Of a stretch of DNA of 64,000 bases, positions 7,677-63,327 are shown one piece after another. Where the stretch lies: NCBI GenBank assembly GCA_963281255.1, contig OY725501.1, forward strand, positions 2,705,674 through 2,769,673. The letters run 5' to 3'. The DNA is from Aphrocallistes beatrix. Its lineage: Eukaryota; Porifera; Hexactinellida; Sceptrulophora; Aphrocallistidae. The notes below the pieces were generated by a model, which had not been told where the DNA came from, searched no databases, and saw nothing but the letters and a program-made list of their open reading frames with translations. The translations under genes and the position numbers were made by a program. Position 1 is the stretch's first letter. Each line of letters starts with the position of its first letter.

Positions 7677-10025
7677 TTAGAAAAAGAATAAGGAAAGTAG
7701 AAGAGAGAGAGTTAGGTAACTAGCATGTATACTAGCCGCAGAACTAGGTATGAATTCCAACTTCTCATAGAATTCAGTCGTTTCCATACGGAAATTTCCA
7801 CACTGCTGCAAGTTAACTGGAGGTGGATTCTGTCGTTCTGAAGCCTCATTTATAATCAATGACATCCCTTCTAGCATATGTCCGAGGACATGACAGTGCA
7901 ATAACCAAGACCCGGGATTGTTGGAAACAAATCGAATTACGACATAGCCGAATGTTGGAATGATGACGGTGTCTTTCCTTGGAGTTTTCGAGCTCAAACT
8001 TATCTGAGGAGCAATTCCACCAGTCCAGCTTGGTTGAGTACATTGCTGAGGCAGGCAATTAGTGTCTGTGCAAGATTGATCCGAACAAAATATTTCAGAA
8101 TTCTGAGTATCGGTGAATCCTGTAGTATTCGAATAAGTGGGATAACCAACTTTAACGACATAGAAATGATGACCGTGCAAATGAACTGGGTGTGAAAACG
8201 GGATCATTCCACGTGAACTCAGTACAATATCAATTGTTTTGTCATAACCGACCTCTACGATGTGTGTACAAATACAATGCAAGTCAAAAGGGTTACATTT
8301 TGTATCTCGGTCACAAATGACTGCTTGCTTGCTAAATTCCTCCGGCTGTGTCAGTAATGGCACTGGAGGAGAGACGAATTGACGGCCATTTATAGCACTC
8401 GTAGCTGTTTCGGATTCGAAATTAAAATTGAAAAAGAAAGTGTAATCAGCAGTTTGACTCGGTAGCTCTGATGCGGGAGTTTCAATCAATAGCTTGAATG
8501 CACCGACATTAACACACTCTGTATAATATGATGGGTGAAAATACTCAAATGGACAATTCACAACTCGACAAATACTGGGATTTGAGCACACTCTTTGTTG
8601 AGAAGCACGACTGACAGCTTCATAATCACTTGATGCAATTCCTCCATCTCCAGGAGCTGTTTTATAGTGGAGTATAGCCTCGGTTCCAAAGCCTAGGTTT
8701 TCATAAGGAGGATTGCCGTTGGTAATGTTACTGTCAATTGTTTCTAGCCAAATGAGGTAGTTTCCAATGGTCTGGTTAGCTGTGAGTAGAAAATCATAGC
8801 GTTCTCCCGAATGGAACATGATATAGTCTACATTACGAATTGGTTCAATAAAGTAACCGTCTGTGGCTACTACAGTGAGCTTGTGCCCGTCAATAGATAG
8901 CCGATAAATAGATTCCTTTTGAGCACCGATAATACGGAAACGATAGGTTTTGGAGTATTCTACTGTGAATTGAGATAGTCGTGATTGGATATATGGCACA
9001 GATGGATGCCTTCCACGCCCGTTTATTAGGTGAGAATGAATCGGGAAGAATGAAGAGAATGACCTTTCATAGCTATTGATTGGAGCATACAAATCGTGGA
9101 TGCCAGGAATTGGAACTATTCCAAGAGGAGTATCTGGATAAAATATAGTTTTAGCATTTTGCAATATGAATTCTTCATGTGCTGACCTACTAGCCCAGTC
9201 ATTTGCTATTATTGTATGGATATTGGGCAGGTCTTCGAAAGGGCCAATCCCGAAATTTAAACTCAGTTCAGACATTACTTTGTTAGTAGTTTGAGCATTT
9301 TCTCGAATTATTAATGAACCGAAAAGTCCATCTCCTCTCTGGGCACCAGTGTGAGAATGATACCAGAAGGTTCCAGCTGGAACTGCTTTGAAAATGTACT
9401 GAAAACTTGTCAATGGATTTATATGGCATTGAGTTATGCCACCAACACCATCCATCCAAGGTGTATTGAACTGCGGCATGCCATGCCAGTGAATGGAAGT
9501 TCCCTCTTGAGTGAGATTGTTATGGACATTCACAATTACCGTTGCTCCTTCATCAACAATTAAATGTGGCCCAGGCAATTGCCCATTTACGCCTATAATC
9601 AACCTAAACGAGAGACTATTCGTCCAGTTTGGTACAGTACAGTTATAATCTTCATTATTCTCGAAATCGCGACATTTCTGTGGAAGAAAGGTCGGAACTG
9701 GAACTGCATGACCACTCGAATTGATATTAAAAATGACTCCATGAGACCCACGAATCAATGTCCGTTTATCTCCTAGTATTTCGTAACTAGTGAAAGAGTG
9801 GAGTTCATCAATATCCAGTGAGAATTGGCATTCATCATAATCTGACTCGCACTCACAAGTTGGGTTTCCCCATTTACAATCTACTACACAGCGAGATTTT
9901 TGATTGTCCGCGATAAAATTAGATTCACATCTAGCTTCACATTGTTGAATAATGCAAAGGAGAACCGTTATGGATAGAACGATAGATTTGAATCTTGACA
10001 GAATATTCTTAGTGTCGTTCCACAT
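7677..10025 (-). CDS. Multicopper oxidase, laccase-like, probably GPI-anchored
   Basis: Single exon, 782 residues. An N-terminal signal peptide (about 1-31, SIVLSITVLLCIIQQCEA) is followed by a Cys-rich stretch (33-66) and three cupredoxin domains. All four copper motifs are present: HWHG at 179-182, WYHSH at 221-225, HPVHLHGHHF at about 612-621, and HCHVLGHMLEGM ending at 721. The His-Cys-His, the following His and the terminal Met give type 1 copper ligands with an axial methionine. The protein ends in a small-residue stretch plus a hydrophobic tail (TLSLLLSLFFF) with no basic residue after it, which suggests a GPI anchor. Family members oxidise phenols, catechols or metal ions with reduction of oxygen to water, outside the cell; the substrate here is unknown. 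A tatatag site 15 bases upstream of the ATG could be the acceptor of a 5' untranslated intron. Confidence 0.9.
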   Translation of the reverse strand: MWNDTKNILSRFKSIVLSITVLLCIIQQCEARCESNFIADNQKSRCVVDCKWGNPTCECESDYDECQFSLDIDELHSFTSYEILGDKRTLIRGSHGVIFNINSSGHAVPVPTFLPQKCRDFENNEDYNCTVPNWTNSLSFRLIIGVNGQLPGPHLIVDEGATVIVNVHNNLTQEGTSIHWHGMPQFNTPWMDGVGGITQCHINPLTSFQYIFKAVPAGTFWYHSHTGAQRGDGLFGSLIIRENAQTTNKVMSELSLNFGIGPFEDLPNIHTIIANDWASRSAHEEFILQNAKTIFYPDTPLGIVPIPGIHDLYAPINSYERSFSSFFPIHSHLINGRGRHPSVPYIQSRLSQFTVEYSKTYRFRIIGAQKESIYRLSIDGHKLTVVATDGYFIEPIRNVDYIMFHSGERYDFLLTANQTIGNYLIWLETIDSNITNGNPPYENLGFGTEAILHYKTAPGDGGIASSDYEAVSRASQQRVCSNPSICRVVNCPFEYFHPSYYTECVNVGAFKLLIETPASELPSQTADYTFFFNFNFESETATSAINGRQFVSPPVPLLTQPEEFSKQAVICDRDTKCNPFDLHCICTHIVEVGYDKTIDIVLSSRGMIPFSHPVHLHGHHFYVVKVGYPTYSNTTGFTDTQNSEIFCSDQSCTDTNCLPQQCTQPSWTGGIAPQISLSSKTPRKDTVIIPTFGYVVIRFVSNNPGSWLLHCHVLGHMLEGMSLIINEASERQNPPPVNLQQCGNFRMETTEFYEKLEFIPSSAASIHASYLTLSLLLSLFFF

Positions 10026-10082
10026 TTTACTCTCTCCGTTCCTATATAAAATACATTCAATATATTCTTAAGTTTATTTAAT

Positions 10083-17188: not shown

Positions 17189-19633
17189 TCAATTAGCGAG
17201 AATACAATCTCCAACCGAGATTAGAGAGAGTTTGTCAATAGTCGATATGTCCAATGCCAACTTTGCATAGAGATTAGAATCCTTTGTACCATTTATTGAC
17301 TCAATATTCATAGTTACTTCAGCATTGTTTGCAGAATCAAACATGTAGTTCATCCCAATGCCATTCATAGAGACACGCCTCAACTCGTGTTTAACCAATG
17401 TTTCCATTTCTTTTCTATCCACGACCAGATTCCCTCTCATTCTATCGAGCAAATCTTGTGGACTGCCATCTAGCTCACCAAATCCCTTACTAGTTGGATC
17501 TAGCACACTTCTTTCGCTAGCCTGTGTTGTAAGCAACAGGTGCGTCTTGGACTGAAATGAAGGAATCTCGACAACTTTAGATGCATAATTAGTATCTTCC
17601 TTTGTAAGCGTAACTGGATATCTCAGAGCCTGAGACAACCAATGGTCCACTTCCCGTAGTCTCACTTCATAAGCCCGCCTTTTCACCTGACTGGTGTCGT
17701 CACCTTGATTGAGATTAAAACTGATCGGCTCCATACCGGGATAACTCAGCTGCATGCTACCGGACTCGAGGTCAATCAGGGGCTGGATTCGATACAGATT
17801 CTTATCCACGGTTTGCTTTATCACTACTTTCTTACTGTCCAGGATTGCCCACGTTCTGTCGTAGAGGAAGCCTGTCTCACACACGGGCCACTTCTCCACC
17901 TTCATAGCAGCACAGGACTTTATTGGGTAGATACAAATCTCTGTGATACGCACACTTTCCTTATCTGAGCAGGAAGTGGCGTCTTCTTTAGAGACGACTA
18001 CAGCTTCAATCGGTTGTGATTCTATAAAATTCCTCTTAATCATGGACAGCAACCTATCTGCATCCTCTCTCGTGTTGTAGAAACCAAACGACACTCTCAC
18101 TGCTCCTGTCGGGACTCCGTTCACAAGATCGATCTGATCTCCACATAGATGGCCTGCCTCTAGAAATAAGATGACTTGTTCGTCAGTTACGGACATGTAC
18201 TTCTGGCATGCTCCGCCGTTACAGAAACAGCCAACCCTTAAACTGATTTTATTTAGGTTTGCAACATCGTTCACTTTGATATACCCCACATATGTCCCAT
18301 CAGAACGGAGTATGTTGAAACTAAGAATATGGCCCTGTGTTTTGGGGTCTAGGTGAGGGGAGCTGGTGTAGATCTCAAGCACGGGAGCTCCGTTGTAGTG
18401 TTTGAGTGAGCGGAGCTGTGAGTAGGTGTACTCGACCAGAGAGAAGATGTGTGAACCTATGCGACTGATTGAAAGTCCTAGCGATTTCAATGTTTCAAAA
18501 CCATGGTACAATGCCAATATGCTCTGATACGAGATTGTCCCTTCTTCAAAGAAATCCTGAACCAAATCTTTACGAAAATGAAAGTCGCGTCTACTTGTGT
18601 AACTCCAAACAGTTCCTCCTCCGAAATATTTCTTCCACAATAGATGGTGGGTGTCGTTTCTTACTAACAAGGCGCCAATTCCTGTCGGGAAACCGAATAG
18701 CTTGTAGAACGAAACGGCTAGAAAGTGAGGCGAGTCTTTGCTCAGATCAATCTCACTGCTACTGAGAGCTGCTGCTGCGTCAATGAACACTTTGACAGAG
18801 TTAGGCGGGAAATGGACACCACAGATGTTCACACCTGACCTGGACTGTTTCTCAATAATCCCTATCGGATACTTCTTCCCGGAGAAGTTGCAAGTGGCTG
18901 GATGAGCCAGTAGGTGGAATCCTTCTGACCGTACTTGTTCTTCTCTACTACTGTACTCGTTTCTGAATCGAGCGAATATTTCATTCGTTTTGTCACATTT
19001 TGTTGGCTTTTGCAGCAACTTTAACACATCAATGTTTGCATCACTGCAAACAACATTATCAGAGTCATTTATAGACTTATTAACAGAAGGGGTTACGCTC
19101 CCAAATAGATCTTCTTCTTTTACCCAGACAGAAAGTGCCCCTTTATCCTTTGCAACTTCACGCATTCCAATCACGGAGGTGTGATTTATCTCAAGATAGA
19201 GATAACAGCTTCGTTTCTTCTCCACTGCCTCTTGCAGCACCTGACAATTCTCTCTGAACTCAGGCCGCTCTGAGCTCAGATACACATGTGCAGGATCTCC
19301 ATCCAGACCCTTACCCACACCTCTACCCCAGCAGAACGAGTCTGCCAACAGTTTGCATGCGCTCGTAGTGCCAGCAGTGAATACCACAGTGTACTGAGAG
19401 AGGTCCGTGTGGAGGAAGGAGGCTATCTCCTCTCGCACCCCCTCCACTATTTTACCTGTGCGATCACTGTGTGTGTGCACACTGTGTGGATTCCCGTACA
19501 AGTTCTCTGTCAGATCTTCACTGAAACGCTTCAGATGAGACTTGAGAGGCAGTCCAGCTCCTGCGTTATCTAGGTACACTTCATCTCCCAGGTGAGGAAG
19601 CTCGGTTCCGCGGTCCAATTGGATGTCATTCAT
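17189..19633 (-). CDS. MOCOS: Molybdenum cofactor sulfurase (NifS-like plus MOSC)
   Basis: One exon, 814 residues (human protein 888). The N-terminal part (about 1-520) is a class V aminotransferase/cysteine desulfurase domain: YLDNAGAG near the start, GNPHSVHTHSDRTG, the pyridoxal-phosphate lysine in AVSFYKLFGFPTGIGALLVR (K311), and the persulfide-site region VGCFCNGGACQKYM (about 468-480). From about 560 (RITEICIYPIKSCAAMKVEK) a MOSC N-terminal barrel and MOSC domain follow, including MRGNLVV. The enzyme transfers sulfur from cysteine to the cofactor of xanthine dehydrogenase and aldehyde oxidase. The PCxRC-type cysteine segment usual in MOSC domains is absent; the corresponding stretch reads RRVSMNGIGMNYMF and the only later Cys is four residues from the end. 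The desulfurase part looks complete. Absence of introns contrasts with its intron-containing neighbours. Confidence 0.9.
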   Translation of the reverse strand: MNDIQLDRGTELPHLGDEVYLDNAGAGLPLKSHLKRFSEDLTENLYGNPHSVHTHSDRTGKIVEGVREEIASFLHTDLSQYTVVFTAGTTSACKLLADSFCWGRGVGKGLDGDPAHVYLSSERPEFRENCQVLQEAVEKKRSCYLYLEINHTSVIGMREVAKDKGALSVWVKEEDLFGSVTPSVNKSINDSDNVVCSDANIDVLKLLQKPTKCDKTNEIFARFRNEYSSREEQVRSEGFHLLAHPATCNFSGKKYPIGIIEKQSRSGVNICGVHFPPNSVKVFIDAAAALSSSEIDLSKDSPHFLAVSFYKLFGFPTGIGALLVRNDTHHLLWKKYFGGGTVWSYTSRRDFHFRKDLVQDFFEEGTISYQSILALYHGFETLKSLGLSISRIGSHIFSLVEYTYSQLRSLKHYNGAPVLEIYTSSPHLDPKTQGHILSFNILRSDGTYVGYIKVNDVANLNKISLRVGCFCNGGACQKYMSVTDEQVILFLEAGHLCGDQIDLVNGVPTGAVRVSFGFYNTREDADRLLSMIKRNFIESQPIEAVVVSKEDATSCSDKESVRITEICIYPIKSCAAMKVEKWPVCETGFLYDRTWAILDSKKVVIKQTVDKNLYRIQPLIDLESGSMQLSYPGMEPISFNLNQGDDTSQVKRRAYEVRLREVDHWLSQALRYPVTLTKEDTNYASKVVEIPSFQSKTHLLLTTQASERSVLDPTSKGFGELDGSPQDLLDRMRGNLVVDRKEMETLVKHELRRVSMNGIGMNYMFDSANNAEVTMNIESINGTKDSNLYAKLALDISTIDKLSLISVGDCILAN

Positions 19634-19915
19634 TGGAATATTCCTTAAACTGATAATGCTGGGGGAATATTTGTTAATTCTAATGAATCTGAAGTTGTTT
19701 ATGATATAAATATCATTTTTTCTATCAAAGTAGTGAGTATAGTATATGTCTATCTAAAGTACTACGTACTACTATAATGTAAAATTTTAATATGCATATC
19801 AAGTATAGCGAAGAAAAACATCATTTCCAATGTTTTGCATCAAGCATAATATTTAAATCACCGGTTTTATGAAAATAGTGAAGTGGATTGGTGATTTAAT
19901 TGCAAATTTTAAGGG
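19634..19915. other. Upstream flank of MOCOS
   Basis: AT-rich and probably includes the MOCOS promoter; no motif I can assign. Confidence 0.3.
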
Positions 19916-24982: not shown

Positions 24983-25412
24983 ATCGGAATAAGACCTAAA
25001 CCATTCGAAGTAGGAATAAGATCTAAAACGTGCAAAATAGGAATAAGACCTAAAACGTGCAAAGTAGGAATAAGACTTAAAATGTGCGAAGTAGGAATAA
25101 GACCAAAACGTACGAAGTAGGAATAAGACCTAAACCATTCGAAGTAGGAATAAGATCTAAAACGTGCAAAATAGGAATAAGACCTAAAACGTGCAAAGTA
25201 GGAATAAGACTTAAAATGTGCGAAGTAGGAATAAGACCAAAACGTACGAAGTAGGAATAAGACCTAAAACGTACTAAGTAGGAATAAGACCTAAAACGTG
25301 TGAAGTTTTAGGTCTTATTCCTACTTCGAAATTATTTTAGGCTTATTCCTACTTCGCATATTTTAGGTCTTATTCCTACTTCGCACATTTTAGGTCTTAT
25401 TCCTACTCCGAT
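24983..25412. repeat. Minisatellite with a higher-order unit and an orientation switch
   Basis: Monomers of about 27 bp (consensus gtaggaataagacctaaaac plus gtgcgaa). Five monomers form a 134-bp unit that is duplicated without a single difference (25001-25134 and 25135-25268). At about 25306 the array flips, and four monomers run in the opposite direction to 25412, so the two halves can pair as a long hairpin. Confidence 0.9.
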
Positions 25413-29300: not shown

Positions 29301-32300
29301 AGCCAGTCCAATATCGACAAGGTGTGGACATGCCTAATTTCCGGGACGGGATGGGACCGTCCCGGAAAATCTAGATACCTAATTTCCGGGACTGGACGGG
29401 ATCCCATCCCGGAAATTAGGTATCTTAACCCGTCCCGTCCCGGAAATTAGGTACCTTTTCTGTCCCGTCCCGGAGATTAGGCATCTTGACTCGTCCCGTC
29501 TCGGAAATTAGGTATCTAGACCCGTCCCGTCCCGGAAATTAGGCATGCCCACAAGGTGTATTTTCTAACGTCGTCTTTATGAAAAGAGAAAAAATGAGAA
29601 AATGATCTCAGAAAGACGATATTAGAAAAATACTCCTCTGATTCATGCATCCATCCGTTTCAACGCCACAGTCTCAACATGAGATATGCCAAAATCACAA
29701 CTCTGAATTGTCGAAGTAACCTATTTCCTGAAAGAAAAGTTCCTTGGGGGGGGGAGGGGGACACATTACTTCGAAGTCCTCGCGGACACTTTTCTTCAGT
29801 GGACAGGGTACTCGGAGACAGAGCTTGGGACTAGAGCTTCTGTAGGAGCTGAATCTACTCCAAATTTTTTGAAAAACGCATTGAACCACTTCAATGTCAA
29901 CTTAACCTTCCTTCAGGTTGTGCCATGGAAAGTGAATACAAAGATTTCCTCAATTAAAATGATCGACTCTTTTCTAACCACGATGAACTTTAATTATTGG
30001 AAATTAGTGAAATTCAAAAAGTTTTGGACTTTTCTACTTACTAAGTAGAAACAGGAGTATCTAGTTACATCTCATAATTGAGGGAGGCATTTGAGGTATG
30101 GATGAAAGAATTCTTGATCTCAACTCACATACTGTTACTTTTGTAATTAATAATGATGGAGCAACTTCAAAGAGAACTTCATCAGAAAGCACATATCGTG
30201 TATGAGGCGGACCTAATCTGATTACTGTGTGTGATATACAATTATTTAAATGTAATAATACTCACGCTTTGTTAGATGAGCGACTTGAGCAAAGTAGTTT
30301 GATTTGTGTTCCTATCCTCTCAGGTTCATTCCTAACCGCGGCCATTTGGACACAGAGTTTGCGCGGTTCCAACTCTCCAGCTCTGAGGACGAGCCGGAGA
30401 GAGAAGAGAACTCCCTTTCTCTCAACCTAGACAGCACACGCATCCTTTCCTTCCAACCGGTCAAGAAGCTGAAACCTGAGACGAGCAGCATGGAAACTCT
30501 CTACACTCAGAACTCCGCGGATCTGTTTAATATACGGACGCGGGCCAAATTAAATCGTCAGATCCCCTCCCAGTCAGACAAGATCCTGGATGCACCAGGG
30601 ATTAAGAATGACTTCTACCTCAACTGTCTGGACTGGAATCAGGACAATATCATAGCTATCGCACTGGAAAACGAGGTTAGGACTCAATACGTGTTACAGA
30701 CCTCCCTCAAGGCTATGTCCTGATTTATACTGGGAATGACTGTACTGTGTTGACAGGTTTATTTGTGGAATGCTGGGATCTCTAAAGTGGTGAAACTGAA
30801 CAACGAAGCTATGACGGCCGCCTACGTGTCTAGTGTGAAGTGGTCCCCCGTCAGCTCGTTCCTGGCAGTCGGCACCTCCTCCGCACAGGTGGAGCTGTGG
30901 GACGTTAGGAAGCAGGTGCGGCTACGAGTGATGGACTGTAGCGGTTCGCGGGTGGGGTCTCTCTCCTGGAACGGGAACACCCTGAGTACGGGGTCACGTG
31001 ACGGCACTCTCTGCCACCATGACGTCCGAGTGGCAGACCACCTCTTCATGCAGACACAGCACCACGAGCAGGAGATCTGCGGCTTGGCCTGGTCAGGGGA
31101 TGGCCAGTACCTGGCCAGCGGAGGGAACGATAACATGATCTGTGTGTACAACTCCATCTCGCTAGAAAACCCACTGCACACACTCACCGAGCACACGGCA
31201 GCTGTTAAAGGCATTGCTTGGTGTCCGTGGCAGCCCAATCTCCTCACCACGGGGGGAGGCACTTCAGACAGGTAGTAGCTTTATTCTCAATTACTCGTGC
31301 CGTGGTTCACACGATTATTCCCGCTCCCCATTAGGTACATCCGATTCTGGAATGCTTCTAATGGCAGGTGTCTGAGCTCTGTACACACCCAATCACAGAT
31401 CTCATCTTTGGTTTGGAACCAGGAGTATAAGGAGCTGGTGAGTGGACACGGGTTCGCTAACAACGAGATTTCTGTCTGGAAGTACCCTAACATGGTCAAG
31501 CTGGCAGATCTCCATGGACACACGAACCGTGTCCTCAACATGGCCATCAGCCCTGACGAGACCTCGGTCGCTTCGATCGCTGCGGACGAGACACTTCGTA
31601 TTTGGGACCTCTTCCCACACAGAGAAAGCGGAAACGGAAAAGTCGAATCCAAAAGTACGTCATCGAGCTCACTTTCAAAATTTAGTTCTATCCGCTAGCA
31701 ACTCAACCACTGAGAAATGCCTGCAAAGAGGTGCCTGTAAATTCACCATATTTCAATGCACAGCTACTATTAGGAACACTTGTACTCAAATGTTATCTAG
31801 TTTCGTGCCCTGACACACAATTAAACGCTAACTTATTGCTCTCGTCTTGCTTCACTTTTTACCCATCGACTGAGAGAGTTCGTTATTGAGTTTATTTCCA
31901 TGTCTTACAGGAAAGCAGCACTCATTCCTAGTAGCAACTAGATTTCCATGTTGTAATCCCAATTGTTACAGAATAATCGTTACAAGACCGCGTGACCAAA
32001 TTATGTGATTTGAGTAATAGTTATCAACAATTTACACATTTGTAAAATCCACTTACCAACCCTCCCTTTCTAACCTCGGACGTACCTTATTTCCTCCTTA
32101 AAGGCAAGTTACAAAATAATGCTACGCACACAGATAACTTAAGTTGAATCAGAGCAAGGAATGATGTGATCATTTTTAGGGATCTACAACAGTTCGTAAC
32201 AGAGAGGTTAGGTACGTCATTTAGACACCATGCTGAACAACTTTGATTTAGATATCCACATTCTACGTAATTACATGTTTGCTGATTAGGAATGCAGTTT

Positions 32301-46346: not shown

Positions 46347-46351
46347 GAAAA
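46347..46351. repeat. 5-bp target duplication GAAAA, left
   Basis: GAAAA directly precedes the left terminal CACAGTG and is repeated directly after the right end at 49777-49781. Five bases is the duplication length known for Transib and RAG transposition. Confidence 0.9.
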
Positions 46352-46378
46352 CACAGTGGTTTAGAACCAAAGAATAGG
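46352..46378 (+). repeat. Left terminal inverted repeat, RSS-like heptamer
   Basis: CACAGTG at 46352-46358, then 10 bases, then AAAGAATAGG at 46369-46378, followed by a run of seven A. The heptamer equals the consensus of V(D)J recombination signals. Confidence 0.9.
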
Positions 46379-47074
46379 AAAAAAATAGATCTCCTTTCCT
46401 ATGATTTTATTCGATTACTTATTGTTTGAATAAAACTTGTTTGAATTTTCTAAGCAATTGAGTGCCTAGAAGCAGTACAATTACACTTACAAATATGCAT
46501 GTTCATTTTAGCTAAAATTGTGGTTCCGGGGAATTCTAAATTTAACCTCAATTCAAATAGAAGCAAAATCATTTTCTAACAATACAAGACGAAAAATTCA
46601 GTTTAGTTTATACATTTAAAGTATGCTGAAACCGAATAACCTGTTTTCATTCAAGTATTTTCAATATTTCAGTTGAGAAATTAAATTCTATACTTGTTGC
46701 TAACTTAGAATCAAAATTTATTTGATAACAAATTCAAAAGTGCTCGCAAAAGTAAACTTCACAAAACTTCAATTAGATATTGATACAATATACCCCTAAC
46801 TAGATCTAAATTCATAGTTTAAACGGATACGCCCCGAAACAGTGCGCAAAGTAAGATTTTATATTGAATTCCATTGTCATATTTTTGTTGTTAGGCAAAT
46901 TCCATTGTCAAATATTGTAACTATGTAACAAAACAAGATATTATTCTTACAACCACACTCATCGTATTTCAACTCAAAGTATGAACACTATACCGATATT
47001 ATAAATAAATGTCTGATGATGTAAAAAGCTTCAGTATTGGAATCTCTTAATCATTATTCATTGACACATTCCTC

Positions 47075-49255
47075 ATGGCTGAGAAGTTATCTTTCCCAAA
47101 TTCCCGTATTGAATTTGCAAGACTCTTAAAAGAAAATAACAATTGTATCTTGACAACGGTGAATTACCTACAACAAAACTTCGAATTAGATTTCGATAAG
47201 AAAAGTTTGGAATCAATACTATTCAGAATTCGAGATAGGGTCAAGAAAGCAAAGAAATCTTTAGATTGTTTAGAGGGAGAATGGTGGCACTCTAACATTT
47301 CCACTGAACCAGAGGTGAAAAGAAATCGCATTTCTGACTCCCTTGAGTTGCCTTCAGACGACGAAGCAGAAGTAGCCACACTTTCTGTGACCCATAGGAA
47401 GACCCTTGATCATCTTTCCATGCAACAGCAACGTTCTCGACTCTCAAGTGTGCTGGAATCTATCAAGTCACTCTCACTGATTGAGAATACCTCTGAAATC
47501 AAAATCGCGGCGCTTGCCTTACAACTGTTATCCAATCTAACAGAGAATCGTGGGATAGCAAATGTTTCAAAGTCAATCGTGTATGATAAGTTCCCCGGTC
47601 AATTCGGGAACATATTGAAGAAAGAACTGGATGTCAGCAAAGCGTTATTCCTTGTAGATATGTTAGAGATTGGGAGGAGAAAGTATACGAACCTACGCCA
47701 TCACTTGCTATCTAGCGATATTTATTTCCCCGCATATCATAAGGTTGTGGAACAAAGGAACAGCATTATTTTACGAAATATTATTCAATTATATCCCAAT
47801 CCTGCTACTCCAGTTGGTGCGCACGTACCATATGCACAATACGTCCGTCATACACTCGACCGAATCTTGTTCACCATACCTCCTCCTGCAGCTCAAGACT
47901 TTCCTCTGCGATTTCAGATTGCAGATGGACTAGATGGCTCCGGAAGTCACAGAATTTACAACCAGTCTAGCACGAATACAGAGACTAAAGCATACATCCT
48001 ATTCTGTTTTAAGGCAGTGCAGATTACAACCTTCAGCGGTCGAGAACTCTGGAAAAACACCAGTCCGAATTCTCCCTTCACCCAGCGACCCATTTTCCTT
48101 CTCGCTGCGAAGGAAAATGAAAATAATATCAAGCAGTTCATGACCGATTTAATCAATCCGGAAACTGAGTTAATGAAGAATGAAGGATTTTCTCTTGGGG
48201 ATAATCAACAAGTGCATATCGACATTGTTCGGTCAATGTTTGATGGGAAAATGTCAGCAATTCTATCTGGAGCAGGTGGGGCAAGTTGCCAATTATGTAC
48301 CGCTACTCACGATGAACTGAAAGATCGTGAATTGATAATACAGGGATTTCCTATCAATAGACGCATCACTGACGCCATTCAACTATTTGGAGAAATCGAA
48401 GATAACGATTCTTTCTTTTCTCTACCCTCAAACGAACGTTATAACCTCACCCACGAACTAACTTCCACTATAAATATCCTTCCAGCATCTCCTCTACACT
48501 CATACACTTGTATCTTCAGGTGGTTTACTCTACTAGTTTATCATTTGAGCTGCGGTAAACTTACATGGTCACCAACATCGACTGCAGTTAAAAATTCGAT
48601 GGTCTTTGTCAGAACTCTCGTACAAGAGAAGACTGGTTTGAAGATAGACCAGCCTGATCCTAAGGGGGGTACTACCTCTACTGGTGGTGTTGCGCGTCGA
48701 GCTTTTTCCTCCGAGTCAAAATTTATTGATTGCGTTTCGTCATGTGTTGCGATTGAGTACAGGGAGACACTTTCACAATTACATACACGATTGTCAGCTA
48801 TTCTTAGAATAATAAATTCAGACAGGAAGATACACACCGAAGAATTTGGCGATCTATGCACGAACACCTATCTCTTAATTCTGGACTCGTTTCCTTGGGC
48901 AGGCGTTACACCGACATTGCATCGCGTATTAGCTCACTCAGAAGAAATTTTGAACGACTTGAATTTCGGACACGGCTTGAAATGCTTCTCTGAGGAAGGT
49001 TCCGAGGCTTGTAACAAGCTAATAAGAAAGTACAGGGAGAATCTCGCTAGGAAGTGTTCATTTGAAGACAATGTGGTCGACATTTTTGTGAGATTGGCTT
49101 CTGAAAGTGACCCCATACTAAATCTATTCCGATCAAAGTTAGTTTGCGAAAGATGTGGAGAACACGGGCACACAAAAAGAGCTAAGTGTTGCAGAAATAA
49201 TTCATCACTTTCATCAATAGATACAATTGTCGATACACTCATAATTAACACTTAG
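47075..49255 (+). CDS. RAG1-like/Transib transposase
   Basis: One open frame, 726 residues, from an ATG at 47075. From recalled RAG1 motifs, the catalytic acids align as D284 (ADGLDGSG, RAG1 D600), D390 (SMFDGKM, RAG1 D708) and E641 (FSEEGSEACNK, RAG1 E962). Zinc ligands C405/C408 (ASCQLCTA) match RAG1 C727/C730, and H616/H621 (LHRVLAH) match H937/H942. The spacing H621 to E641 is 20, as in RAG1. Near the C-terminus CERCGEHGHTKRAKC (691-705) is a CX2CX3GHX5C knuckle like the CCGHC tail of RAG1-like transposases. There is no RING domain. At the position of RAG1 R848, a vertebrate change that suppresses transposition, alignment places Thr (GGTTSTGGVARR). The protein should cut by nick-and-hairpin chemistry at the CACAGTG ends. 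Nothing in the frame is broken. Confidence 0.93.
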   Translation: MAEKLSFPNSRIEFARLLKENNNCILTTVNYLQQNFELDFDKKSLESILFRIRDRVKKAKKSLDCLEGEWWHSNISTEPEVKRNRISDSLELPSDDEAEVATLSVTHRKTLDHLSMQQQRSRLSSVLESIKSLSLIENTSEIKIAALALQLLSNLTENRGIANVSKSIVYDKFPGQFGNILKKELDVSKALFLVDMLEIGRRKYTNLRHHLLSSDIYFPAYHKVVEQRNSIILRNIIQLYPNPATPVGAHVPYAQYVRHTLDRILFTIPPPAAQDFPLRFQIADGLDGSGSHRIYNQSSTNTETKAYILFCFKAVQITTFSGRELWKNTSPNSPFTQRPIFLLAAKENENNIKQFMTDLINPETELMKNEGFSLGDNQQVHIDIVRSMFDGKMSAILSGAGGASCQLCTATHDELKDRELIIQGFPINRRITDAIQLFGEIEDNDSFFSLPSNERYNLTHELTSTINILPASPLHSYTCIFRWFTLLVYHLSCGKLTWSPTSTAVKNSMVFVRTLVQEKTGLKIDQPDPKGGTTSTGGVARRAFSSESKFIDCVSSCVAIEYRETLSQLHTRLSAILRIINSDRKIHTEEFGDLCTNTYLLILDSFPWAGVTPTLHRVLAHSEEILNDLNFGHGLKCFSEEGSEACNKLIRKYRENLARKCSFEDNVVDIFVRLASESDPILNLFRSKLVCERCGEHGHTKRAKCCRNNSSLSSIDTIVDTLIINT

Positions 49256-49460
49256 ATTTATAGGATTAGTACAATATTTGTGTATGTGTGTTGTCATCAT
49301 CATTAAGAACCATTGTGTCTTCATTTGACAATCAAATTATCGTGTACTGCGGGTTTCCCCACTTTTGATGTACAGTTTATCTCATAATATTTATACGATT
49401 TTCTGAGGTTGTGGAAAACTTTTTTGAAAAATGCAATATAAAATATATTCACCAAATTCT

Positions 49461-49726
49461 AGGTAAACCATATCTCGAAAAAACGAAGACATATAACAAT
49501 TCTGAGTGCACTTATGGCTTTCTAGGGGTTGATAACCTATATGAATCTAATACATTTCATGGAGCTAATAGCAAATCTGAAAGAAATATGAGCAAAAGAA
49601 CAAATTTCGGCAAAATATGGGGAAGCCATATCTTGCACAGCTGAAGCCATATAAAATTTTTTATTATGCCAATCGTTTTCCAAGGGTGGATAACCTATAT
49701 GCATATAATACATTTGATAGGGCTAA
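49461..49726 (+). repeat. Degenerate direct repeat in the 3' part of the element
   Basis: Units 49461-49568 and 49619-49726, offset by 158 bp. They are best conserved in gataacctatatg and taatacattt near their ends and ccatatct near their starts. They lie between the transposase stop and the right terminal repeat, where transposase-binding sites are often found; that role is inference. Confidence 0.75.
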
Positions 49727-49740
49727 CGTGCATCTATATA

Positions 49741-49776
49741 CCTATTCTTTACTAACTGTGTTTTTAAACCACTGTG
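49741..49776 (-). repeat. Right terminal inverted repeat, RSS-like heptamer
   Basis: Read on the minus strand: CACAGTG (49776-49770), 19 bases, then AAAGAATAGG (49750-49741). The spacer is 9 bases longer than on the left and contains a run of five A followed by CACAG. Confidence 0.9.
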
Positions 49777-49781
49777 GAAAA
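49777..49781. repeat. 5-bp target duplication GAAAA, right
   Basis: Exact partner of 46347-46351. The predicted empty site is gaggttGAAAAtgatgtg. Confidence 0.9.
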
Positions 49782-51270: not shown

Positions 51271-51864
51271 ATGGCAGTCTTAACAATTCTTCAATCAATT
51301 GCATCCACTATAGTGTTGATTGTACACTTAACTGAATGGAGAAACCCGAACAACCTGAATGAGTCAGCAAATCCGCCCAAATCAATTCCGCTTGATTTAT
51401 TGTTGCCACGGATTGTGCACATCACTACCATAGCAACACAATTATTCTTTGATCTTCATCTATGGGTAGCATTTCTACATGGGGAGAATGCATGTCTGCT
51501 TAATAGTGTATTCGTGGTGATAGGATTATTTCTGTGCTTAATTGGTGAGTATATAAGGTACTCATGCAAACAAGAATTAGGCCGGTTTTTCACGTATGAG
51601 GTAGGCGTGAGTGAAGGCCAGAAACTCGTCCAGAACGGATTCTACACTTACCTGATGCATCCAAGCTATCTGGGACTATTAAGCATATTCTTGGGTACTG
51701 CAATATTCTATTCTTCAACTTTTCTGCTTGTTTCTTTCCTTCTAATGACCGCTTTAATGATTTATAGAATTTGTATAGAAGAAATCGTACTTGAGAATGG
51801 ATTTGGAAGTGAATTCGTGAAGTACAAGTCTAGGAGGTGGAGGATGGTTCCTTATTTGTATTAA
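51271..51864 (+). CDS. Isoprenylcysteine carboxyl methyltransferase-like membrane protein
   Basis: Single exon, 197 residues. It has an N-terminal hydrophobic segment (about 4-20), two central ones (LHLWVAFLHG; SVFVVIGLFLCLIGEYIRY), then the family core: LGRFFTYEVGVSEGQKLVQN, GFYTYLMHPSYLGLL, a hydrophobic hairpin, and IEEIVLENGFGSEFVKYKSR with RWRMVPYLY at the end. The HPSYLG and EE...FG..Y motifs form the S-adenosylmethionine and lipid pocket in ICMT/PEMT-type enzymes. ICMT methylates the C-terminal prenylcysteine of CaaX proteins in the endoplasmic reticulum. At 197 residues it is shorter than human ICMT (284) and the N-terminus is reduced, so another member of the isoprenylcysteine/phospholipid methyltransferase superfamily is possible. 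The frame starts 267 bp after a MITE. No introns. Confidence 0.75.
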   Translation: MAVLTILQSIASTIVLIVHLTEWRNPNNLNESANPPKSIPLDLLLPRIVHITTIATQLFFDLHLWVAFLHGENACLLNSVFVVIGLFLCLIGEYIRYSCKQELGRFFTYEVGVSEGQKLVQNGFYTYLMHPSYLGLLSIFLGTAIFYSSTFLLVSFLLMTALMIYRICIEEIVLENGFGSEFVKYKSRRWRMVPYLY

Positions 51865-62471: not shown

Positions 62472-63327
62472 CAGGGTGTCTCAAAAGTTTTTTCTGGTTT
62501 TATATTTAATCAAAATATTCCTTTTACATCAGTGCTTGTATTTAAACTCGCCCTTTTTTGATAATATTTAACTTGAACGGTCATAATATTTGAATGAAAT
62601 ACAAATCAATTGTATTTTTTGACATCTTGACCTTACTTCATCATCAATATATAGTTTATATAATGGATGTCCAAAATTCCAGAATTGGTAAGAGATTACG
62701 TGCAATCGGTATGTTAGAATCTGGTATTAGCCAGAAACAGATTGCTCAGACCTTAGGAGTTACTATTAAGACTGTTTGGAATTGGAAAACGAAGATTCTA
62801 TCAGGCAAATCCATGGCGGGCAAACCTCGGTCAGGGCGTCAATACTATATAAAAGAAATTTTGGAGAAGTTCCAACCTTAAAGAGAAGGTAAACAGGCCC
62901 AATGACAGAACGGAAAATGTGTCGCTTGATGTCCGAGGCTATTTTTATGCAGGATGGGGATCCTGCCCATACTGCCAAAAAGACGCAAACCTTTTCAATC
63001 ATATTCCAGGCTACTGGGCAAAAGGAATTTGGCCTAGCAATTCACCAGATTTAAATCCCATTGAAAATCTTTGGGCGATTATTCAAGCAGAGTTTGACAA
63101 TATGAGACCAGCCACCAACTTGTTAGAGCTCGCTAATTACCTGAAAAATATCTGGAATGGACTCACGCCGTCGATTTTGGAGAATTTAATCTCAGGAATG
63201 TCTGCTCGAATTAATTCTTGTATCCAACTTAGAGGAGATTATATTGGCAAATAATATAAGATTTCTATACTGTAGTTTACTAGTTATGGGTATTAGTACA
63301 ACCGGAAAAAACTTTTGAGACACCCTG
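62472..63327 (+). mobile_element. Internally deleted Tc1/mariner element
   Basis: TIRs CAGGGTGTCTCAAAAGTTTT and its complement, with TA on both sides (62470-62471 and 63328-63329). 856 bp instead of the roughly 1.3 kb or more of a full element; the middle of the transposase gene is missing. Probably mobilisable only in trans. Confidence 0.85.
62664..63254 (+). pseudogene. Tc1/mariner transposase, deleted and frame-broken
   Basis: The first part, from MDVQNSRIGKRLRAIGMLES at 62664 to a stop at 62881, is the N-terminal helix-turn-helix (SGISQKQIAQTLGVTIKTVW). The second part, open to 63254, is the C-terminal end of the DDE domain with WPSNSPDLNPIENLW, which contains the second Asp region and the last acid of this family. 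The central catalytic portion with the first Asp is absent between them. It cannot make a working transposase. Confidence 0.85.

Follow-up and report, generated by a model that had tools for sequence, protein, structure and literature searches.

The enzyme that assembles antibody genes belongs among the relatives of the Transib transposases, and for both RAG and HzTransib, a Transib transposase from Helicoverpa zea, the sequence of nicking, flank hairpin formation, excision, and insertion with a 5-bp stagger is established. Here, we analyze a 64,000-nt stretch of contig OY725501.1 from the glass sponge Aphrocallistes beatrix (Hexactinellida), hereafter the window, which contains a complete 3,425-bp element with the features of a Transib at 46352..49776 (+ strand). 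An earlier note on this DNA had described the element as a complete, apparently intact RAG1-like (Transib) transposon with relevance to how V(D)J recombination arose.

Among described systems, Subgroup I Transibs all have asymmetric ends, carry an alpha11-alpha12 region and a CTT1 tail, and are nearer to the RAG1-like protein RAG1L; in Subgroup II, the alpha11-alpha12 region is lost and the tail is different (PMC9435367). The alpha11-alpha12 region and a CTT1-type tail are common to RAG1L and Subgroup I (PMC9435367), and PMC7204232 gives the RAG1L tail motif as Cx2Cx3GHx4C. The catalytic residues of HzTransib are D126, D225, and E436, according to PMC6941560. With respect to the ends, the RAG1-RAG2 (RAGL) transposon of the alga Aureococcus anophagefferens, AanRAGL, combines a 13-bp element with a 10-bp box, 4 or 13 bp apart (PMC9435367). 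Spacings of 27/31 for amphioxus ProtoRAG and 12/23 for the vertebrate recombination signal sequence (RSS) are given in PMC8289069, and PMC8355894 reports unequal spacers of 12/23 ± 1 for Drosophila Transib5 and for Anopheles Transib2 and N1-N3. Where autonomous Transibs are present, they usually number one or a few copies per genome, as stated in PMC4411706.

Results

The element in the window is very probably an autonomous, recently mobile cut-and-paste Transib DNA transposon that has most of the Subgroup I features. Its limits are defined by the end sequences and by four further end-to-end copies in the genome (100.5 Mb in 28 contigs), which together with the window element belong to what we call family A. 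The termini, CACAGTGG...CCACTGTG, are flanked on either side by GAAAA, a perfect 5-bp target-site duplication (TSD; 46347..46351 on the left and 49777..49781 on the right). Each end opens with the heptamer CACAGTG (5', 46352..46358, + strand; 3', 49770..49776, - strand), which is the same as the RSS heptamer consensus given in PMC8289069, and the CAC terminal inverted repeats (TIRs) and 5-bp TSD of Transibs are both present. The coordinates claimed in the earlier note are exact, and its matched ends and perfect duplication are confirmed. A pair of 121-nt subterminal direct repeats, 72% alike, lies beside the 3' end (49448-49568 and 49606-49726, together 49448..49726, + strand).

Comparison of the two ends revealed a further feature that the earlier note had missed. 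The same 10-base box, AAAGAATAGG, is found at both ends; at the 5' or short end it lies 10 bp inward of the heptamer (46369..46378, + strand), and at the 3' or long end 19 bp inward (49741..49750, - strand). The ends are bipartite and unequal, and the 10/19 spacing of family A gives the element the asymmetric TIRs of Subgroup I.

Frame listing and homology searches locate the transposase gene at 47075..49255 (+ strand), where a single open ATG frame encodes 726 amino acids, the length that had been claimed from the sequence. Within 46352-49776, no second ATG frame of at least 60 amino acids was found outside this gene. The best match of the protein among solved structures is HzTransib (6pqn, E-value 7.3e-24); amphioxus RAG1L (5e-10) and mouse RAG1 (∼5e-4) are weaker matches in the same single-sequence search. 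A profile built from three open frames of different families of this genome gave the same order for HzTransib, with E-values of 5.7e-41 for HzTransib, 3e-13 for amphioxus RAG1L, and 4e-13 for mouse RAG1. In the alignment, the three acids of HzTransib are consistent with one numbering offset, D126, D225, and E436 facing D287 (47933..47935), D390 (48242..48244), and E644 (49004..49006) of the window protein (all + strand). The zinc ligands C405xxC408 (48287..48298, + strand) and H616xxxxH621 (48920..48937, + strand) can be read directly from the sequence, so that the catalytic acids and the metal ligands expected from the first reading are all in place.

Three further regions of the protein are relevant to its assignment. 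A nonamer-binding-domain (NBD)-like region is placed at residues ∼105-165 (47387..47569, + strand) by comparison of the three-family profile with the RAG1 NBD; the profile matches the isolated domain (3gna) with an E-value of 0.031, and a longer segment of mouse RAG1 (5zdz) in which the NBD is contained with an i-Evalue of 5.7e-7. Residues ∼422-471 (48338..48487, + strand) correspond to the alpha11-alpha12 region. In the single-sequence search, 50 window residues stand opposite 14 HzTransib residues between aligned blocks, and in the profile search 48 profile positions stand opposite 13, while amphioxus RAG1L aligns through this gap with few gaps of its own; as far as the sequence can tell, the alpha11-alpha12 stretch is kept in the window protein. 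Finally, the C-terminal tail CERCGEHGHTKRAKC (49145..49189, + strand) forms a CTT1/CTT*-like zinc knuckle, Cx2Cx3GHx5C, with one residue more than the published RAG1L motif. The earlier description of the tail as CCGHC-like stands, though not with the exact CCGHC spacing. The Pfam zinc knuckle model gave a weak match (0.034) in one of three family members.

A phylogenetic tree was built from 12 loci of this genome and three outside proteins (HzTransib, amphioxus RAG1L, and mouse RAG1). It should be noted that nine of the 12 own-genome rows were merged from separate open frames, with several partial. The few outside proteins are represented by long, partial rows, of which amphioxus RAG1L has an odd composition, and the tree has no known root. 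The 12 loci cluster apart from HzTransib with support of 98/98, and amphioxus RAG1L and mouse RAG1 form a pair (100/99) with the window protein outside it. Thus, by searches and tree, the protein sides with HzTransib in the former and stays outside the RAG1/RAG1L clade in the latter, which is represented by two RAG1-type rows, both partial, in a tree whose root is not known. The RAG1-like (Transib) identity proposed earlier is borne out; a placement outside the Transib/RAG1 clade altogether was looked for with the same searches and tree, and neither gave it. An NCBIfam search yielded nothing useful. Scanning prokaryote genomes twice and viral contigs once returned no confirmed relative, and since the bacterial Transibs of PMC9435367 were not reached by these scans, the prokaryote result is no test of their absence.

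An alternative assignment is that the element is a RAGL transposon of the ProtoRAG type, or a remnant of one that has lost its RAG2-like gene. The CCGHC-like tail and the alpha11-alpha12 stretch, being common to RAG1L and Subgroup I (PMC9435367), would suit this assignment, as would the asymmetric ends. However, HzTransib is nearer than RAG1L in the searches, the RAG1L and RAG1 pair stands apart from the window protein in the tree, and the element carries one gene rather than the RAG1L-RAG2L pair of RAGL/ProtoRAG. The Pfam RAG1 model scores the window protein at 18.3 bits, below the cut-off of 25, and among the 19 genome matches listed for this model none exceeds the cut-off. The Pfam RAG2 model likewise has no match in the genome, which is weak evidence because the controls of that search were equally silent. 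We regard a RAGL origin as very improbable, and the element is treated as a Transib in what follows. As a separate observation, three of the 19 listed, sub-cut-off RAG1 matches (C2:5043448, C13:1830299, and C2:5497970) fall outside the list of transposase matches.

To place the window copy among its relatives, the genome was searched with the transposase, which gave at least 70 matching stretches, the window's own included (several stretches may be one copy). The ends were searched with a 27-bp left and a 36-bp right pattern, allowing up to three mismatches. Thirteen occurrences of the left end (nine exact, the rest with 1-3 mismatches) and 10 of the right end (seven exact, the rest with 1-3 mismatches) were found, and since the reversed-pattern controls gave 0 in both cases, the ends are not a product of chance. 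Copies with different ends were looked for; those of the same family carry the same CACAGTG ends. Pairwise, the five end-to-end copies differ by 5 to 27 substitutions (0.15-0.79%), and their TSDs are GAAAA, CAAAT, AATGG, AATTA, and TATCC, the last shifted by one base. Because the four further copies are this close and each has its own TSD, the element moved recently, and the young copies fit an element that may be mobile at present.

The whole 726-residue frame is open in three of the five copies (L001, which is the window copy, L002, and L004); it is interrupted by one stop in L003 and broken in L007. When gapped codons and one three-state site are disregarded, the simple coding differences among the five copies number 19, made up of nine silent changes, nine amino acid changes, and one stop. 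The silent share of 9/19 compares with 22.5% expected (P 0.015, ratio about 0.32), and there is modest evidence here that new copies derive from functional copies. An intact frame with a deficit of amino acid changes is also what a transposase gene domesticated by the host, and merely retaining old transposon ends, would present. Against this, the ends and the TSD are intact at the locus, and the four other end-to-end copies, nearly identical but flanked by different TSDs, bear the signature of a mobile family; selection on a mobile lineage accounts for the deficit. Domestication is therefore, in our judgment, extremely improbable, even more so than a RAGL origin, and a mobile Transib remains the preferred reading. 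At one further locus, C13:1098915-1104563, a pair of family A 5' ends lies head to head with 5.6 kb between them. We considered a symmetric transposition product here but discarded this reading, because the flanks too are inverted (GATGTATA...TATACATC), which makes an inverted duplication probable.

Family A is one of several Transib families, A to F, that we distinguish in this genome. Over six families, 15 elements were examined at both ends. Eleven of these have a perfect adjacent 5-bp TSD, two have a one-base shift, and two match at four of five positions; in this tally the second end of D1 was located via its TSD, and the head-to-head pair of 5' ends was not counted. In the tree, families A and C pair (96/99) and the D rows form one group (99/100), with weak placement for E and F (bootstrap 41-76). 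The tail knuckle Cx2Cx3GHx5C is present in A, B, and C and absent from the D, E, and F rows that reach that far, namely L034 (2994-5153, C17), L037, L038, L039, L041, L042, and L043, of which D1 alone has an unbroken frame. Should CTT1 be ancestral, these families may have lost it on more than one occasion. D1 itself (L034) has an open 720-residue frame in which HxxxxQ replaces HxxxxH, and its kin L036 has HxxxxH.

Shorter elements accompany these families. Four elements of 1.5-2.2 kb have family B ends (C1:10713826-10715339, C6:2541174-2542676, C10:2880024-2882182, and C13:2125235-2126755), and their TSDs are perfect over 5 bp in two cases, shifted by one base in one, and matched at four of five positions in one; with no transposase match listed inside them, they look like non-autonomous derivatives. 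At C3:1719450, C3:2317187, and C12:482137, short stretches match only transposase residues ∼579-725, at 53-54%, and a family C type end (CACAGTGGTTTGGGG) lies ∼0.9-1.0 kb upstream of each. These three may represent a short derivative in which the tail remains encoded.

The unequal spacing of the inner box was then compared across families. Family B, whose protein is 42-44% identical to that of the window, has a different box, AGGGAGTTG, likewise at 10 and 19. A shift test was carried out on six two-ended families (A, B, C, D1, D2, and E), one copy each, in which the heptamer and the next five bases were omitted and the 3' end was shuffled; family F (L039 and L040, with no partner end found) and single-ended copies were left out. 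At a shift of +9, the shuffle P values are 0.0016 for A, 0.0002 for B, 0.058 for D1, 0.026 for D2, 0.42 for C, and 0.44 for E. When the best shift is taken whatever its size, they are 0.025 for A, 0.0024 for B, 0.46 for C, 0.83 for D1, 0.53 for D2, and 0.015 for E. The best shift is +9 in A, B, and D1, a tie between +9 and -8 in D2, -1 in C, and -5 in E. The short end is the one that precedes the transposase start in A, B, D1, and D2. Outside the test, the B-derived copy at C13:2125235-2126755 (L056/L057) has a 5' end that lacks 2 bp and shows a shift of 11 rather than 9.

Several points weigh against the reading of the element as a Subgroup I-like Transib with functional 10/19 ends. Of the six families, only A and B show the +9 shift clearly; in D1 and D2 it is weak, C and E lack it, and family E prefers a shift of -5 with a score equal to those of A and B. 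The +9 P values are after the fact, because +9 had already been spotted by eye in four families (A, B, D1, and D2) when the test was made. On the protein side, the additional residue sets the tail apart from the published CTT1 motif, the match to the isolated NBD is weak when taken alone, and a structure model from a 3-row alignment reached a pLDDT (predicted local distance difference test) of 36, which is too poor for use, so that the domain assignments rest on sequence alignment.

These results could indicate that the inner box is chance, or a residual likeness of the two ends, and not a functional second recognition site. Such an explanation would account for C and E without a +9 shift, for the weak D1 and D2, and for the other shift favored by E; moreover, the families of one genome are related, and the six trials are for that reason not independent. 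It accounts poorly for A and B, in which boxes of different sequence are each matched at their own 10 and 19, and for the published spacing of AanRAGL (PMC9435367), which yields the same numbers. On balance, we consider a chance box unlikely, though with a good deal more to be said for it than for a RAGL origin or domestication, and we retain the box as a candidate second recognition site.

Elsewhere, the window holds four host genes identified with Pfam. A multicopper oxidase (7677-10067) and a molybdenum-cofactor-sulfurase-like protein with aminotransferase V and MOSC_N domains (17189-19753) are each encoded in a single long open frame; a Cdc20/Fizzy WD40 gene lies at 30754-31275 and an ICMT/PEMT-type methyltransferase gene at 51271-51864. 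A DDE_3 fragment of Tc1/mariner-like character at 62853-63254 falls short, with 25.2 bits, of the curated cut-off of 28.6, and 27-bp tandem repeats at 24986-25407 reverse their orientation at about 25306.

In the same genome, a 17,996-bp contig carries COX1 together with an atp9 match. Among 167 COX1 codons read, there are three TGA and no TGG, five AGA stand at positions unsuited to Arg but acceptable for Ser or Gly, and the 12 ATA, more than the six ATT and ATC combined, are mostly at positions normally held by Ile. For glass sponges, PMC2267718 describes this same set, with AGR translated as Ser, a preference for AUA as Ile codon, hardly any UGG, a retained atp9, and a 17.4-kb circle in Aphrocallistes; small genomes, of 80 and 61 Mb, have also been published for glass sponges (PMC10282587). 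On these characters, a glass sponge is the probable host. Among other mitochondrial codes, code 5 was rejected over ATA at Ile positions and the ascidian code was discarded on the same ground, although some AGA codons occupy normal Gly positions; the echinoderm/flatworm code was discarded in view of atp9 on this contig and the small genome.

Discussion

On the model of HzTransib and RAG, a dimer of the transposase would pair one short and one long end, nick the DNA 5' of each CAC, excise the element by the flank-hairpin route, and insert it with a 5-bp stagger. In this scheme, the NBD-like region would probably recognize the family-specific inner box, the zinc knuckle would assist end binding, and the 9-bp difference in spacing would lead the complex to prefer unlike ends.

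Since the element is a Transib rather than a RAGL element, its relevance to the origin of V(D)J recombination is only through a shared ancestor, and the bearing suggested in the earlier note holds in that narrower sense. Nor is a complete copy remarkable in itself, as complete Transibs were already known; paired unequal ends and a sponge host are less usual. We found no report of a Transib in a sponge in a literature search of titles and the starts of abstracts, and the word Transib is not in the main text of two glass-sponge genome papers (PMC10280926 and PMC10282587), whose supplements lay outside the search. Given this scope of titles, abstract starts, and main texts, novelty is not proven.

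The special value of the element would lie in the combination of an RSS-type heptamer, 10/19 ends, an NBD-like region, no second gene, and a sponge host. An intact, young RAG1 relative that has unequal bipartite ends and lacks RAG2 could show whether the pairing of unlike ends preceded RAG2, in which case such pairing would be a forerunner of the 12/23 rule. In addition, the presence in one genome of related families with and without the tail knuckle offers a comparison of which part of the protein reads which part of the end. A bolder proposal, which we put forward tentatively and think doubtful as it stands, is that the signals of the whole Transib/RAG lineage go back to one ancestral layout, a heptamer with an inner box at a short and a long spacing of 10/19. 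In this proposal, a RAG1-like protein that had an NBD but no RAG2 already read the layout, which would survive in mobile form in sponges, and V(D)J recombination would have obtained its 12/23 signals when the layout was later stretched. The spacing works out equal to that of an algal RAGL transposon, and the host is an early-branching animal.

Compared with HzTransib, the window element has a homologous transposase with the D/D/E triad and zinc ligands in common. The HzTransib alignment, however, starts at chain position 11, opposite residue 188 of the window protein, HzTransib is without ∼36 residues in the alpha11-alpha12 stretch, and its ends are reported as symmetric in PMC8289069, whereas those of the window element are unequal. 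The low autonomous copy number agrees with the pattern described in PMC4411706. Unequal spacers are shared with Drosophila Transib5 and Anopheles Transib2 and N1-N3, with 10/19 here in place of 12/23 ± 1. ProtoRAG and the 12/23 RSS have in common with the window element a CAC heptamer and a second element at two spacings; those systems work with RAG2 or a RAG2-like protein, at spacings of 27/31 and 12/23. Numerical agreement is seen with AanRAGL, for which our arithmetic, with the heptamer counted as the first 7 bases, gives a box lying 10 and 19 bp further in, equal to the window element, although AanRAGL has both RAG2-like and RAG1-like genes and its box and terminal sequences differ. With Subgroup I, by its published description, the window element shares asymmetric ends, the alpha11-alpha12 stretch, and an NBD equivalent, and its tail resembles CTT1 with one residue more; what distinguishes this genome is the Cx2Cx3GHx5C form of the tail in families A, B, and C, the D, E, and F rows without the knuckle, among which D1 and D2 show the +9 shift weakly, and the glass-sponge host.

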